Of a DNA stretch of 64,000 nt, positions 30,443-33,846 are shown piece after piece. Origin of the DNA: Micromonospora siamensis. GTDB lineage: Bacteria; Actinomycetota; Actinomycetes; Mycobacteriales; Micromonosporaceae. Every line of letters starts with the position of its first letter. Position 1 is the stretch's first letter. Position numbers and translations under genes: made by a program. The stretch is from positions 6,014,001-6,078,000 of the forward strand of contig NZ_LT607751.1 of assembly GCF_900090305.1 (NCBI RefSeq). The letters are read 5' to 3'. A model generated the notes under the pieces. It did no database searches and was not told the DNA's origin. It was given only the letters and a program-made list of their open reading frames with translations.

Positions 30443-30895
30443 TCAGTCCGTCCCGCGCCGCATGACCAGCGCGTCGGTGTTGCTCGGTTGGTAGTAGCCC
30501 CGGCGTACGCCGATCGGTTCGAAGCCGTAGGTCGCGTAGAGCCGCTGGGCCGGCGCGTTGTCGGCGGCCACCTCCAGCAGCACCGAGGGCGCGCGGCGGC
30601 GGGCCGCCTCGGTCAGCAGCGCCTCCAGCAGCGCCCGGCCCAGGCCGTGCCGCTGGGCGTCCCGGCGGACCGCGATGTTCTGCACCCACGCCTCGTCGGC
30701 CTGCACGGTCAGCCCCGCGTAGCCGAGCACGGCACCCTCGGCATCCGTGGCGACCAGGTAGAAGTGCCCGTTGGCCAGTTCGTTCCAGAACATCCCCGGT
30801 GACCACTGCTCGGCGCCGAAGAGGTCCGCCTCGATCGGGAGCACCTGGTCGATGTGCCACCACCGGAACCGCTCCAGCCGGGCGGGACCGGTCAT
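30443..30895 (-). CDS. rimI: ribosomal protein S18-alanine N-acetyltransferase RimI
   Basis: 150-aa GNAT acetyltransferase. The acetyl-CoA loop is RRDAQRHGLGRALLEALL, with strand WVQNIAVRR before it, and the C-terminal FEPIGVRRGYY matches the RimI group. RimI acetylates the N-terminus of ribosomal protein S18 and, in actinobacteria, has broader N-terminal targets. It overlaps tsaB by 4 nt and leads into tsaD, the usual actinobacterial order. Confidence 0.93.
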   Translation of the reverse strand: MTGPARLERFRWWHIDQVLPIEADLFGAEQWSPGMFWNELANGHFYLVATDAEGAVLGYAGLTVQADEAWVQNIAVRRDAQRHGLGRALLEALLTEAARRRAPSVLLEVAADNAPAQRLYATYGFEPIGVRRGYYQPSNTDALVMRRGTD

Positions 30896-31569
30896 GGCAG
30901 GACCGGCTTGTGGCCGGTGGCCGCCACGGCGTCCGGGCGGCGCAGGTAGAGCGGGGTGAGCCGCTCCCCGGGCGCGCCGGCGCGGATCCGCTCGGCGGCC
31001 AGCCCGGCCAGCGCCGACGGGTCCGGGTAGCGCGGCTCGGCCCGCAGCGGCAGCCCGAGGACGTCGGCGTACCGGTGGGCGCCGTCGCCGACCGCGACCG
31101 TGACGGCGAGCTCGCGGGCCCGCTCGGCGGCGACCGCCGGGAGGTCGACGTCCGGGCCGGCGATCCGCTGGCCGGCGCCGTCGTAGACCGCCCAGTAGAT
31201 CTCCCGGCGGCGGGCGTCGCCGGCGGCCAGGACCGGCTCGCCGGCCGCCGCCGGGTAGCCGATCGCGTCCAGCGAGCAGACGCCGTACGTGGGGATGTCG
31301 AGGGCCTGGCCCATGGTGGCGGCGGTGACCAGCCCCACCCGCAGCCCGGTGAACGGGCCCGGGCCGAGCCCGGCGACGATCGCGGTGAGGTCGGCGGGGC
31401 GGGCCCCGGCGTCCGCCAGCACCGCGTCGACCTGCGGGGCGAGCAGCTCACCGTGCGCCCGGGCGTCGACGGTGCACCGCTGGGCGCGGAGCGCGACGCC
31501 GTCGGCGGACACCTCCGCCAGCGCCGCGGTCACCGCGGGAGTCGAGGAATCCACCACGAGTACGAGCAC
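30892..31569 (-). CDS. tsaB: t6A synthesis accessory protein TsaB
   Basis: 225-aa TsaD-like ASKHA protein lacking the metal-binding HxxxH, needed to assemble the TsaBDE complex. Features are LVVDSSTPAVTAAL at the start and the conserved GPGPFTGLRVGL, then CSLDAIGYP. Start is GTG 31569, with a TACGCT box ending 8 nt upstream, so the tsaB-rimI-tsaD transcript is probably leaderless. In other actinobacteria tsaE would be immediately upstream; here a 2.3-kb block intervenes. Confidence 0.95.
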   Translation of the reverse strand: MLVLVVDSSTPAVTAALAEVSADGVALRAQRCTVDARAHGELLAPQVDAVLADAGARPADLTAIVAGLGPGPFTGLRVGLVTAATMGQALDIPTYGVCSLDAIGYPAAAGEPVLAAGDARRREIYWAVYDGAGQRIAGPDVDLPAVAAERARELAVTVAVGDGAHRYADVLGLPLRAEPRYPDPSALAGLAAERIRAGAPGERLTPLYLRRPDAVAATGHKPVLP

Positions 31570-31577
31570 GATATGCC

Positions 31578-31583
31578 AGCGTA
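31578..31583 (-). promoter_or_regulatory. -10 box (TACGCT) for the tsaB operon
   Basis: TACGCT on the minus strand ends 8 nt before GTG 31569. It gives the split-off tsaB-rimI-tsaD genes their own promoter. Confidence 0.45.
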
Positions 31584-31774
31584 GTCGGCCCTTCGGCTAC
31601 CAGCCGTGACGCCCCCGCCCGGCCGCCGCTGTCCTGCCCCCACGCGGCTCGCGGCTGTGCCGCCTCGCCCGGCACCTTGCGCCGCCCCCGCCGGTCCCGG
31701 CTTCGGCCCCTCGCCCGGACCCGACGAGCGGGATCACCCTGCGTCACTAGGCGCCTGAACCGAACAACCGCGAC

Positions 31775-31822
31775 GAGCGCGATACCTCAGAGTCATTTTG
31801 ATGACTCTGAGGTATCGCGCTC
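31775..31822. repeat. perfect 22-bp inverted repeat with TTTG loop
   Basis: The arm 31775-31796 (starts gagcgcgatacctcag) is the exact reverse complement of 31801-31822, with a 4-nt TTTG loop. It is much richer in A/T than its surroundings. It lies between tsaB and the XRE-type gene, just before or over the possible start codons of the latter. It could be a terminator, an operator, a dispersed palindromic element or a recombination scar. Its length and perfection are exceptional in this window. Confidence 0.95.
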
Positions 31823-31848
31823 ACAAATCTCTGCGACACCATCCGGGG

Positions 31849-32547
31849 ATGCCCGGAAACCGGTTGGCCGCCCTGCTGAGTGACGTGATCCGCCGGCAGC
31901 GGCAGCTCCACGACCTGAACCAGCGCCAGCTGGCGGAGCTGGCCGGGGTCAGCCAGGCCACGGTGGCCCGCATCGAACGCGGCGACCGCTCCCCCAGCCT
32001 GCCGGCGCTCGAGCGGCTGCTGGCGGCCATGGACCTGCAACTCACCGTCGGGGTAGAGGAGCTGGACGCGCACCTCGACGCCCGGCTCGCGGAGCAGTCC
32101 GCGCGACCGCTGGCCGAGGTGCTGGACGGTCTCGGGCTGGACCGGATCGTCGAGCGCCTCGGCGACCTGCCGTTTCTGCTGACCGGGAGCACCGCGGCGC
32201 TGCTCCAGGGCGTCCCCGTGCCGGCCGACGCGGTCGAGATCGCGGTGCGGTGGCGGGACTCGGCCCGCTTCACCGCCTGGCTCGACGCCGCGTACGCGCA
32301 GCGGTGGAGCGCCCACTGGGGCCGGTTCGGCGGGGTGCACATCGAACCGGCGGAGCCGGGTGAGCACCGGTGGCTGACCCGGCACGGTGAGCTCAGGGCC
32401 CAGATGTGTGACGAACTGCCGGAGGGCATCGAGGTGCGGCACGGGGACCGGAGCTACGGGGTGGTGCCGCTGGTCCAGGTGGAGCTGACCGACCCCCGGG
32501 CGGCCGACCTGCTCCGCCGCCACCGGCAGCGGCAGCAGGCCGGCTGA
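31849..32547 (+). CDS. XRE-family HTH protein with nucleotidyltransferase-like second half
   Basis: 232-aa protein. The N-terminal lambda-repressor-type HTH (about 8-65) has LNQRQLAELAGVSQATVARIERGDRSPSL. The remainder has LPFLLTGSTAALLQGV, then PADAVEIAVRW and later HIEPAEPG, recalling the G-S-x-A...D-x-E pattern of minimal or AbiEii-like nucleotidyltransferase folds, without clearly intact catalytic residues. It may be a stand-alone repressor or a fused antitoxin-like protein; I do not recognise a named family. The start is uncertain: ATG 31849 is favoured, but ATG 31801 would put the palindrome inside the coding region. Confidence 0.75.
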   Translation: MPGNRLAALLSDVIRRQRQLHDLNQRQLAELAGVSQATVARIERGDRSPSLPALERLLAAMDLQLTVGVEELDAHLDARLAEQSARPLAEVLDGLGLDRIVERLGDLPFLLTGSTAALLQGVPVPADAVEIAVRWRDSARFTAWLDAAYAQRWSAHWGRFGGVHIEPAEPGEHRWLTRHGELRAQMCDELPEGIEVRHGDRSYGVVPLVQVELTDPRAADLLRRHRQRQQAG

Positions 32548-32569
32548 GGGCCGCCCGGAGCCCGGAGGG

Positions 32570-33271
32570 TCAGCCGGCGGAGCGTTCCCAGTCGACGGTG
32601 GGCAGGCCGGCATCGGCGAGGGCCTTGTTGGCCGCGCTGAACGGGCGGCTGCCCAGGAAGCCACGCGGGTTCATCGGGCTGGGGTGGCCAGCCTCCAGCA
32701 CCACGTGCTGCGGGTTGGTGACCAGGGCGGCCTTCTTGCGGGCGTACCCGCCCCAGAGCAGGAAGACCACCCGCTCCGGCCGGGCGTCGAGGGCCCGGAT
32801 GGTGGCGTCGGTGAACTCCTCCCAGCCGGAGTTGGCGTGCGAGCCGGGGGTGGCCTGGCGGACGGTGAGCACCGCGTTGAGCAGCAGCACCCCCTGCGCC
32901 GCCCAGCCGTCCAGGTTGCCGCTGCGCGGCTTGGGCACGCCCAGGTCCTCGCCCAGCTCCTTGAAGACGTTGCGCAGCGACGGCGGGACGGTCACCCCCT
33001 CCCGGACGCTGAAGCTCAGCCCGTGCGCCTGCCCCGCCTTGTGGTAGGGATCCTGCCCGAGGATCAGCACCCGGCACTGCTCCGGCCCGCAGAGCCGGTA
33101 GGCGGAGAAGAGGTCCTCCACCGGCGGGAAGACCGTCTGGGTCTCGTATTCCCGGGCGACGAACTCGGCCAGCGCGGCCGTGCGGGCCGGGTCGAGGTGC
33201 GGGGTGAGCACGGCACGCCACGCCTCCGGCAGCAGCGCCAGCAGGTCGAGGGTGGGGGCGTCGTCGGGCAT
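32570..33271 (-). CDS. ung: uracil-DNA glycosylase, family 1
   Basis: 233-aa UDG that excises uracil from DNA. The water-activating motif is GQDPYH (D74, H77), and the DNA-intercalating motif is GHPSP, with the uracil-binding LLLNAVLTV and LWGGYARKK between. ATG 33271 has ggaaagg 6 nt upstream and is preferred over TTG 33277. It lies convergent to the XRE-type gene and divergent from hicBA. Chromosomal ung is ordinary, but its placement here breaks the tsaB-tsaE neighbourhood. Confidence 0.96.
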   Translation of the reverse strand: MPDDAPTLDLLALLPEAWRAVLTPHLDPARTAALAEFVAREYETQTVFPPVEDLFSAYRLCGPEQCRVLILGQDPYHKAGQAHGLSFSVREGVTVPPSLRNVFKELGEDLGVPKPRSGNLDGWAAQGVLLLNAVLTVRQATPGSHANSGWEEFTDATIRALDARPERVVFLLWGGYARKKAALVTNPQHVVLEAGHPSPMNPRGFLGSRPFSAANKALADAGLPTVDWERSAG

Positions 33272-33366
33272 CGGCAACCTTTCCAGGAGGGCAACTGGGC
33301 TCTCTTCCTATCAGCCCACACCGACAACGAGGGACGACAGCGTCGGTCGGGTGGCCCGGCCCTCTT

Positions 33367-33393
33367 TAGAATGGGAGGTCGGAGCACGACCTC
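33367..33393 (+). promoter_or_regulatory. hicBA promoter and operator
   Basis: A -10 box TAGAAT (33367-33372) is followed at once by a perfect palindrome GAGGTCG-N5-CGACCTC (33375-33393) that covers the expected start point, then a GGAGG ribosome site and hicB. HicB antitoxins bind such palindromes to autoregulate; the match is inferred from position. Confidence 0.65.
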
Positions 33394-33403
33394 TGGAGGC
33401 GGC

Positions 33404-33616
33404 ATGACTCGCACCTTGACCGCGGCGGTCCACCAGGAGGACGACTGGTACGTCGCCCGCTGCCTGGAGCTTGACGTCGCCAGCCAGGGTGAGACGCTCG
33501 ACGAGGCCCTCGGCAACCTGCGAGAGGCAGTCGAGGTCTACCTCGACGAGGTGCAGAACCCGACGATCGAGACCACTCCCCTGGTGACGTCCTTCCAGGT
33601 GGGACGAGCGGCATGA
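33404..33616 (+). CDS. hicB: HicB-family antitoxin
   Basis: 70-aa HicB-type protein with the partial RNase H fold: LTAAVHQEDDWYVARCLELDVASQGETLDEALGNLREAVEVYL matches the family (W/Y strand, then SQG-ET-DEA-NL-EAV-L helix). No clear C-terminal DNA-binding domain is present, so DNA binding may need the HicA complex. ATG 33404 has GGAGG 4 nt upstream. It overlaps hicA by 4 nt and precedes it, the reverse of the classical hicA-hicB order but common for this subtype. Confidence 0.92.
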   Translation: MTRTLTAAVHQEDDWYVARCLELDVASQGETLDEALGNLREAVEVYLDEVQNPTIETTPLVTSFQVGRAA

Positions 33617-33837
33617 GCCCTGCGCTGGCCGATCTCCCGCTGCGCAAGGTGCTGGACGCTCTCAAGAAGGCCGGCTTCGACCATGTCCGGACCAAGGGCA
33701 GCCACGCCGTCTACAGAAATCCGGCAGGGAACGTCGTGGTGGTGCCCCAGCACGACACCGTGAAGCGGGGCACGCTCGCCTCGATCCTCCGACAGGCCGG
33801 GTTGACGCCAGCGGAGTTTCTCGACCTGCTGGGGTGA
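33613..33837 (+). CDS. hicA: HicA mRNA interferase toxin
   Basis: 74-aa double-stranded-RNA-binding-fold toxin: LPLRKVLDALKKAGFDHVRTKGSH with the catalytic H31 in GSHAVYR, then VVVPQHDTVKRGTLASILRQAGL. HicA cleaves mRNA until neutralised by HicB. It starts at ATG 33613 overlapping the hicB stop (ATGA). Its stop is only 9 nt from the convergent tsaE stop, so the module fits tightly into the t6A gene cluster. Confidence 0.95.
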   Translation: MSPALADLPLRKVLDALKKAGFDHVRTKGSHAVYRNPAGNVVVVPQHDTVKRGTLASILRQAGLTPAEFLDLLG

Positions 33838-33846
33838 CCCCTCGCC

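Follow-up and report, generated by a model that had tools for sequence, protein, structure and literature searches.

We analyzed a 64,000-nucleotide stretch of the Micromonospora siamensis chromosome (the window; assembly GCF_900090305.1, contig NZ_LT607751.1, positions 6,014,001 to 6,078,000), in which the gap between tsaB and tsaE holds a 48-bp palindrome directly in front of a gene for a helix-turn-helix (HTH) protein of the XRE/HTH_3 family, here called XRE. The palindrome is one of a family of dispersed sites that co-occur with the XRE gene in other genomes and change in spelling with its recognition helix. From these sequence comparisons we consider it likely that XRE is a sequence-specific DNA-binding protein with the 48-bp palindromes as its cognate sites, that the site at its own gene is autoregulatory, and, more tentatively, that the others serve a chromosome-wide role. 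The element and its gene are arranged as follows.

31775–31822, palindromic site of 48 bp with two perfect 22-nt arms and the 4-nt center TTTG; presumed XRE operator
31782–31788, plus strand, outer half-site ATACCTC, in which base 4 covaries with XRE residues 41 and 35
31790–31796, read on the minus strand, inner half-site ATGACTC
31801–31807, plus strand, inner half-site ATGACTC
31809–31815, read on the minus strand, outer half-site ATACCTC
31849–32547, plus strand, XRE/HTH_3 gene of 232 amino acids with an HTH_3 Pfam match; the best start is ATG 31849

The palindrome family and its XRE gene

The earlier note on this DNA had described the palindrome as exceptional. The perfect 22-nt arms around a 4-nt center are indeed present at 31775–31822, but the element is not singular. 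A 16-nt stretch of the arm has no other copy in the window with up to two mismatches. Across the chromosome of the window (G000; other genomes carry G-numbers and individual loci L-numbers) an 18-nt stretch of the arm gives 38 matches with up to two mismatches, and the 48-bp frame gives 44 with up to three; the reversed control gives 0 in both searches. A covariance model built from these 44 sites and their 22-bp flanks returned 94 matches, which are 47 sites seen on both strands. Forty-four of them match by construction and three are new. The weakest has an E-value of 3.9e-10 and none follows from there to E 1, the E-values being rough and 150 of 4081 first-look candidates having been scored; a tail of decaying copies was absent among these 150. 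All 44 sites checked are intergenic according to a home-made codon-usage gene caller, in a genome where about 85% of 400 kb of sampled DNA is coding.

The core of the site covers 34 bp in the form AT-n11-AT, 4 bp, AT-n11-AT (15 bp, 4 bp, 15 bp). It consists of four half-sites ATnnCts in two inverted pairs, although the search pattern itself fixed some of these letters. Each letter of the foot, GAGC, is found in 84–87 of 88 arms, under a search pattern that asked for GAGC with at most three mismatches overall. Weak conservation of the flanks extends about 20 bp outward. Judging by this geometry, two XRE dimers probably sit side by side on the four half-sites of the core.

A weaker word resembling ATGTCCG lies about 7 bp outside the 48-bp element, for example at L159, L181, and L185, and such words are possibly further half-sites. 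The central 4 bp (positions 23–26) are palindromic less often than chance in G000, where the symmetry of positions 20 and 24 also falls below chance (P 0.006 and 0.0004). Reduced central symmetry perhaps limits cruciform extrusion.

An AlphaFold2 model of XRE (mean predicted local distance difference test score 88.3) shows an N-terminal HTH_3 domain, a helical linker, and a C-terminal α/β domain. The recognition helix comprises residues 36–44 and includes residue 41. The Pfam query began at TTG 31798, a codon that falls inside the palindrome. A fusion of an XRE domain with a nucleotidyltransferase-like (NTase-like) part had been proposed. The HTH_3 domain stands at the N-terminus, but the C-terminal 143 residues, putatively NTase-like, have no Pfam match even at E 5. 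Matches in the PDB to the HTH part include C.BclI, C.AhdI, and entry 3clc. In PADLOC, the matches of XRE cover little beyond the HTH and are all to generic HTH or HTH-bearing regulator models, with no system-specific effector. A scan of named genomes with the XRE alignment, seeded on two short peptide patterns, found 54 XRE loci. Nearly all are from Micromonospora; a few are from Plantactinospora, Dactylosporangium, Catellatospora, and an unnamed Micromonosporaceae bacterium, plus two weak HTH-only hits in metagenome-assembled genomes.

No description of these palindromes was found among the titles and abstract openings of open-access PMC literature, and five actinobacterial names had 0 matches in the available text of PMC3733652. 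We could not find an earlier description of the protein-and-sites system.

Covariation of the sites with XRE

We scanned 160 genomes of the genus, G000 included, with one site pattern and the XRE protein. Both are present in 84 genomes and both are missing from 64; six have sites only and six have XRE only. The odds ratio is 149 (Fisher P 3e-30), a statistic that ignores phylogeny. Outside the genus, the same comparison over 134 genomes gives 12 with both, 3 with sites only, 15 with XRE only, and 104 with neither. In four of these genomes, two among the 12 and two among the 3, only one site was counted.

The tsaB region was inspected in 13 genomes, mostly exceptions. Several of these fit the proposed pairing, since they carry XRE remnants where sites persist or a re-spelled palindrome upstream of XRE. 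The sites-only genomes G082, G266, and G292 are of the first kind. In the sites-only genome G147, ung lies directly beside tsaB with no XRE at the locus, and in G247 the locus runs into a contig edge. G065, counted as XRE-positive, has a C-terminal XRE remnant only. Among the six XRE-only genomes, a palindrome of other letters stands upstream of XRE in G236 and G173, G182 has a weak palindrome (10/15), G188 has one at 11/15, G183 is a fragment, and G226 is the sixth.

G236 allowed a prediction. Its XRE operator predicts dispersed ATGTCAC palindromes in a genome where the genus pattern finds 0 sites. We searched 1.2 Mb (60 stretches of 20 kb) for the frame at a score of at least 10/15. Four palindromes were found, all of them ATGTCAC with scores of 13 to 15; one lies at XRE and three lie elsewhere. 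Palindromes of the G000 type and the reversed control both numbered 0. Applied to 400 kb of G000, this frame search returned a single GC-rich match at 10/15, attributed to chance.

We collected 108 XRE loci, redundant between collections, after dropping six short matches. An AT-frame palindrome scoring at least 8/15 is present within 400 bp upstream of XRE at 92 of them, compared with 1 of 5400 Markov-resampled sequences and 0 of 108 reversed upstream regions. When AT is not required, a 15-4-15 palindrome of at least 12/15 occurs within 330 bp at 53 of 81 distinct loci, compared with 36 of 2280 shuffles, although some of the 53 are GC-rich and probably due to chance. Some distant XRE relatives keep the 15-4-15 geometry with other half-sites. 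Palindromes also lie upstream of XRE at L049, L060–L062, L067, and L071.

The spelling of the half-sites follows the recognition helix. Of 66 distinct XRE proteins at 45% identity or above, 62 are preceded by an AT-frame palindrome within 400 bp. Base 4 of the outer half-site is T in 24/24 cases with Asn41, His41, or Asp35. It is T in 0/100 cases with Arg41 and another residue at position 35, where 99 have C and one has A. In the inner half-site, Asn41 goes with T at base 4 (10/10) and Asp35 goes with A (12/12), so Asp35 does not shift the inner half-sites to T. Parsimony places three origins of T on the tree, namely R41N (5 proteins), R41H (1), and S35D (6). Arginine prefers guanine and asparagine prefers adenine. 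The code, residues 35 and 41 against half-site bases, is thereby made directly testable. Sites that track the specificity of a protein across a genus of antibiotic producers amount to a natural experiment in the coevolution of a protein and a genome of sites.

The sites are also conserved. For 15 of the 22 sites in the close species G134, loci were available for comparison, and 11 of these 15 occupy a gap that also holds a site in G000. The elements of these 11 shared sites are identical at 478 of 528 positions (91%), compared with 2250 of 3245 ungapped positions (69%) in their flanks of 160 bp on each side. One pair, L148/L186, is an outlier with 29 of 48 positions identical. Sites that can be compared between these two species are kept by selection. 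We also compared 30 sites from other species, taking one from each genome. Nine correspond to a site region of G000, one by a single flank, and six of the nine are the tsaB–XRE gap. Sites are therefore preserved between close species and mostly placed differently in distant ones. Two sites of G000 are absent in G134, with intergenic DNA too diverged to place the boundaries; the region of one G000-only site exceeds its G134 counterpart by about 96 bp, again with unclear boundaries.

Taken together, co-occurrence, helix-linked changes of spelling, and conservation of the sites make it very probable that XRE binds the 48-bp sites directly.

Placement of the sites and alternative explanations

The site at the XRE gene lies 26 bp upstream of its ATG, and XRE bound there would repress its own expression. 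From this position we regard autorepression as likely. The other 46 sites would serve a chromosome-wide role, in which XRE anchors or bridges DNA or insulates neighboring genes. Fourteen of the 44 sites lie in convergent gaps, compared with 4.1 expected from a background of 167 gaps, 16 of them convergent, called with the same home-made gene caller. Divergent gaps hold 6 sites against 12.6 expected (P 0.016), and sites in tandem gaps are shifted toward the gene 3′ end (P 0.004). Ten shared sites have 20 genes next to them whose Pfam assignments point to no common function. The 3′-end and convergent bias, the divergent deficit, and the lack of a functional theme lead us to rate an architectural or insulating role above a regulon. 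This role is put forward tentatively, with somewhat less than even confidence, and would make XRE a candidate chromosome-organizing or insulating factor in actinobacteria.

One site of G000 (C1:511329–511376) has a parS-like 16-mer with one mismatch (511696–511711) some 320 bp away. The other parS-like pair, at 604.5–604.9 kb, has a DnaA-like motif in its vicinity (about 615 kb). Both parS-like calls are relative to the parS consensus.

Several observations weigh against XRE as the dedicated partner of sites with an architectural role. Outside the genus, the tested pattern is absent in 15 of 27 XRE-positive genomes. G202, from the genus, and G031, from another genus, have nine sites each and no XRE relative was found in them; they may have a partner that has diverged or moved elsewhere. 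The AT-frame palindrome is missing at 16 of the 108 XRE loci, which are 11 relatives of less than 40% identity together with L115, L125, L217, L050, and L056, the last being a further Asp35 protein. The XRE tree has weak support at some of its deeper nodes. The spacing of the sites is random (coefficient of variation 0.92) and not regular, and gives no positive sign of a macrodomain function. The origin-to-terminus quartiles hold 9, 19, 12, and 7 of the 47 sites, a skew that is not significant (Kolmogorov–Smirnov P 0.09) and gives a terminus-biased distribution of the nucleoid-occlusion kind no significant support. For this count the origin was placed at about 615 kb by a DnaA-like Walker motif, and the terminus was assumed to lie opposite. 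Finally, the arms covary like those of a hairpin at some positions, and DNA binding alone needs no such covariation.

This covariation is significant in G000 at positions 6, 10, 11, and 15 (permutation P ≤ 0.006), with no significant excess at positions 14, 16, 17, and 19. In an alignment of sites (A2), 33 cells are changed on both sides compared with 20.9 after shuffling, and the covariation score is 0.130 compared with 0.085; 0 of 500 shuffles reach either value, though relatedness of the copies inflates such counts. In the same alignment, the counts of pairs with changes on both sides (9 compared with 7.7; 126 of 500 shuffles) and of pair types (31 of 500) are unremarkable. For G001, among 15 listed of its 23 sites, positions 10 and 13 match between the arms in 13/15 and 15/15. 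The palindrome folds as RNA with −43.5 kcal mol−1 (z −9.07).

One reading would join binding to this hairpin character and make the system a new kind of chromosome-wide system in the Micromonosporaceae. XRE, with a pseudo-nucleotidyltransferase-like C-terminal domain, would build and maintain its own population of hairpin sites, in units of about 90 bp, which would combine REPIN-like behavior with marking of the SlmA kind and be re-spelled when the recognition helix changes. We regard this as possible but on balance doubtful.

A classical global regulon, with XRE as an ordinary repressor or activator and about 47 operators controlling their neighbors, is unlikely. The family of the protein (XRE/HTH_3), a site immediately in front of the XRE gene, and the strong conservation of shared sites would all suit a regulator, and a minority of sites (the 6 divergent ones and some of the tandem ones) could control promoters. 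The convergent excess, the divergent deficit, and the absence of a shared function in the 20 neighboring genes speak against it. Its targets would also be poorly conserved, as only 9 of 30 sites from other species match G000 regions, 6 of these 9 at the tsaB–XRE gap.

The palindromes could instead be non-autonomous mobile repeats of the REPIN kind, with XRE a mere neighboring regulator or a domesticated helper. They are extragenic, hairpin-forming, and covarying in their arms. Judging by the weakly conserved flanks, the copied unit would measure about 90 bp, and the region of one G000-only site is longer by about 96 bp than that of G134 (boundaries unclear). A single-copy, vertically inherited partner gene is also described for RAYT (PMC8049555). 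This explanation seems improbable to us as well, because the candidates scored include no decaying copies and the spelling follows the XRE recognition helix. Moreover, the ten Pfam-scanned genes of the locus contain no transposase (no genome-wide search aimed at a Y1 transposase was made), and the foot is GAGC where PMC3733652 gives GTAG/CGTC tags.

An action as RNA, in bidirectional terminators or stabilizing hairpins at gene 3′ ends, would account for the 3′-end and convergent bias, the strong hairpin, and the covariation at some arm positions. The T content of the flanks is 22% over the first 10 bases, roughly double the 10% at greater distance. A simple intrinsic terminator is nevertheless rejected, for there is no T run even with this enrichment, and the terminator scan was negative at the site in the window. 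RNA hairpins would leave the fixed AT positions, the co-occurrence with XRE, and the covariation with the recognition helix unexplained, and we give this reading a low probability.

The tsaB–tsaE interval and related systems

The remaining genes of the interval and its borders are listed below.

30892–31569, minus strand, tsaB, divergent neighbor of XRE, with its start 205 bp from the palindrome
32570–33277, minus strand, ung, matched by NCBIfam equivalogs
33404–33616, plus strand, hicB-like antitoxin gene, PF24113 (DUF7387), with a weak HicB-like PHROG match
33613–33837, plus strand, hicA toxin gene, PF07927
33847–34329, minus strand, tsaE, from profile matches

Profile matches bear out that ung and hicBA lie between tsaE and tsaB, as had been described. 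The hicB-like and hicA frames overlap by 4 nt, and the tight fit noted before, with the hicA stop 9 nt from the end of tsaE, is confirmed. A −10 box of its own had been claimed for each split half; a scan of 31540–31900, a range that leaves the hicB side outside, found neither a promoter-like nor a terminator-like consensus. The 81 bases around the palindrome had no match in a plasmid search.

The whole interval had been taken for a single acquired defense or addiction block, and its history is different. We examined 58 XRE loci with 1.5-kb flanks, 30 from one scan and 28 more from another. Both tsaB and ung lie within 1.5 kb of XRE at 43 of them, in the genus and in five other genera. Six have ung only, some at contig ends, and nine have neither; these nine are 8 of the 9 relatives with less than 40% identity and L058 (54%). 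Of 70 congeneric genomes without an XRE match, 12 were examined. In five, ung lies directly beside tsaB with gaps of 69–185 bp; in six (L248, L250–L253, L257), another open frame of about 300 amino acids fills a tsaB–ung gap of about 1 kb; in one, ung is absent within 1.5 kb of tsaB. The frames in these six gaps apparently form one family. The tsaB–ung gap is thus a variable slot that may hold XRE, lack it, or hold another gene in its place. Given the 43 loci across genera and the five XRE-less congeners, ung is an old neighbor and the separation of tsaE from tsaB is old. XRE, patchy in the genus (90 of 160 genomes), is gained or lost independently of ung, and nothing here marks ung as a member of the XRE system.

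The hicBA pair is a separate matter. It is found at only two of the 58 XRE loci, those of G000 and G134 (46 of the 58 reach both tsaE and ung), and also in G147, where the locus lacks XRE and the pair is 90–94% identical. Its GC content is low: hicB, hicA, and the gap before both are at 0.65–0.67 (the two genes at 0.66–0.67), below the window value of 0.743, as is the palindrome at 0.52, while xre (0.747) and ung (0.734) are ordinary. With only three genomes carrying it and this low GC, hicBA looks like the sole recent insert of the interval, separate from XRE. The earlier note had held that the same gene order throughout the Micromonosporales, with ordinary composition, would indicate an old rearrangement. 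At the level of the Micromonosporaceae much of this was found, as the placement of ung is old and hicBA alone resembles an insert. The presence of hicBA, patchy and of lower GC, and the patchiness of XRE are what a single acquired block would still explain, but with the ung and XRE position common to several genera, hicBA without XRE in G147, generic regulator models as the only PADLOC matches of XRE, and no PADLOC match for ung or hicBA, that block is very improbable. The palindrome, which resembled the mark of a mobile insertion, is now explained as belonging with the XRE gene and with a genome-wide family of sites.

The known systems compared here are the nearest ones, and each is matched only in part. 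HicBA is represented by a predicted toxin–antitoxin pair with hicA (PF07927) after a short hicB-like gene. Unlike in typical pairs, the hicB part matches DUF7387, and the pair is unrelated to the palindrome system. As in REP/REPIN–RAYT systems, dispersed extragenic palindromes are tied to a single-copy gene with an adjoining copy of the repeat. Here, however, the partner is XRE and not a tyrosine transposase, the 47 copies are discrete and well kept, the foot is GAGC, and the spelling of the sites follows an HTH recognition helix.

Controllers of the C.Esp1396I type bind as two dimers side by side on a 35-bp operator at their own promoter (PMC4041747). XRE shares with them the type of HTH and four half-sites on a 34-bp core 26 bp from its own ATG, as a predicted operator. 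It differs in that no restriction–modification genes were seen among its neighbors (tsaB and ung at 43 of 58 loci, and also in the window), in its extra C-terminal domain, and in an operator that is dispersed 47 times.

For the nucleoid occlusion systems, PMC4726725 gives about 24–52 SlmA-binding sites (SBS), with SlmA bound as a dimer of dimers, and around 70 Noc-binding sites (NBS). XRE belongs to another class than SlmA, Noc, or MatP, with HTH_3 and an uncharacterized C-terminal domain in place of a TetR, ParB, or MatP fold. In contrast to SlmA and Noc, its sites show a 3′-end bias and no significant depletion at the terminus, and there is no sign of action on FtsZ or the membrane. The likeness to SlmA/SBS and Noc/NBS lies in the plan itself, one DNA-binding protein with tens of dispersed palindromic sites, 47 in this chromosome, and the two dimers proposed for XRE would parallel the dimer of dimers of SlmA.

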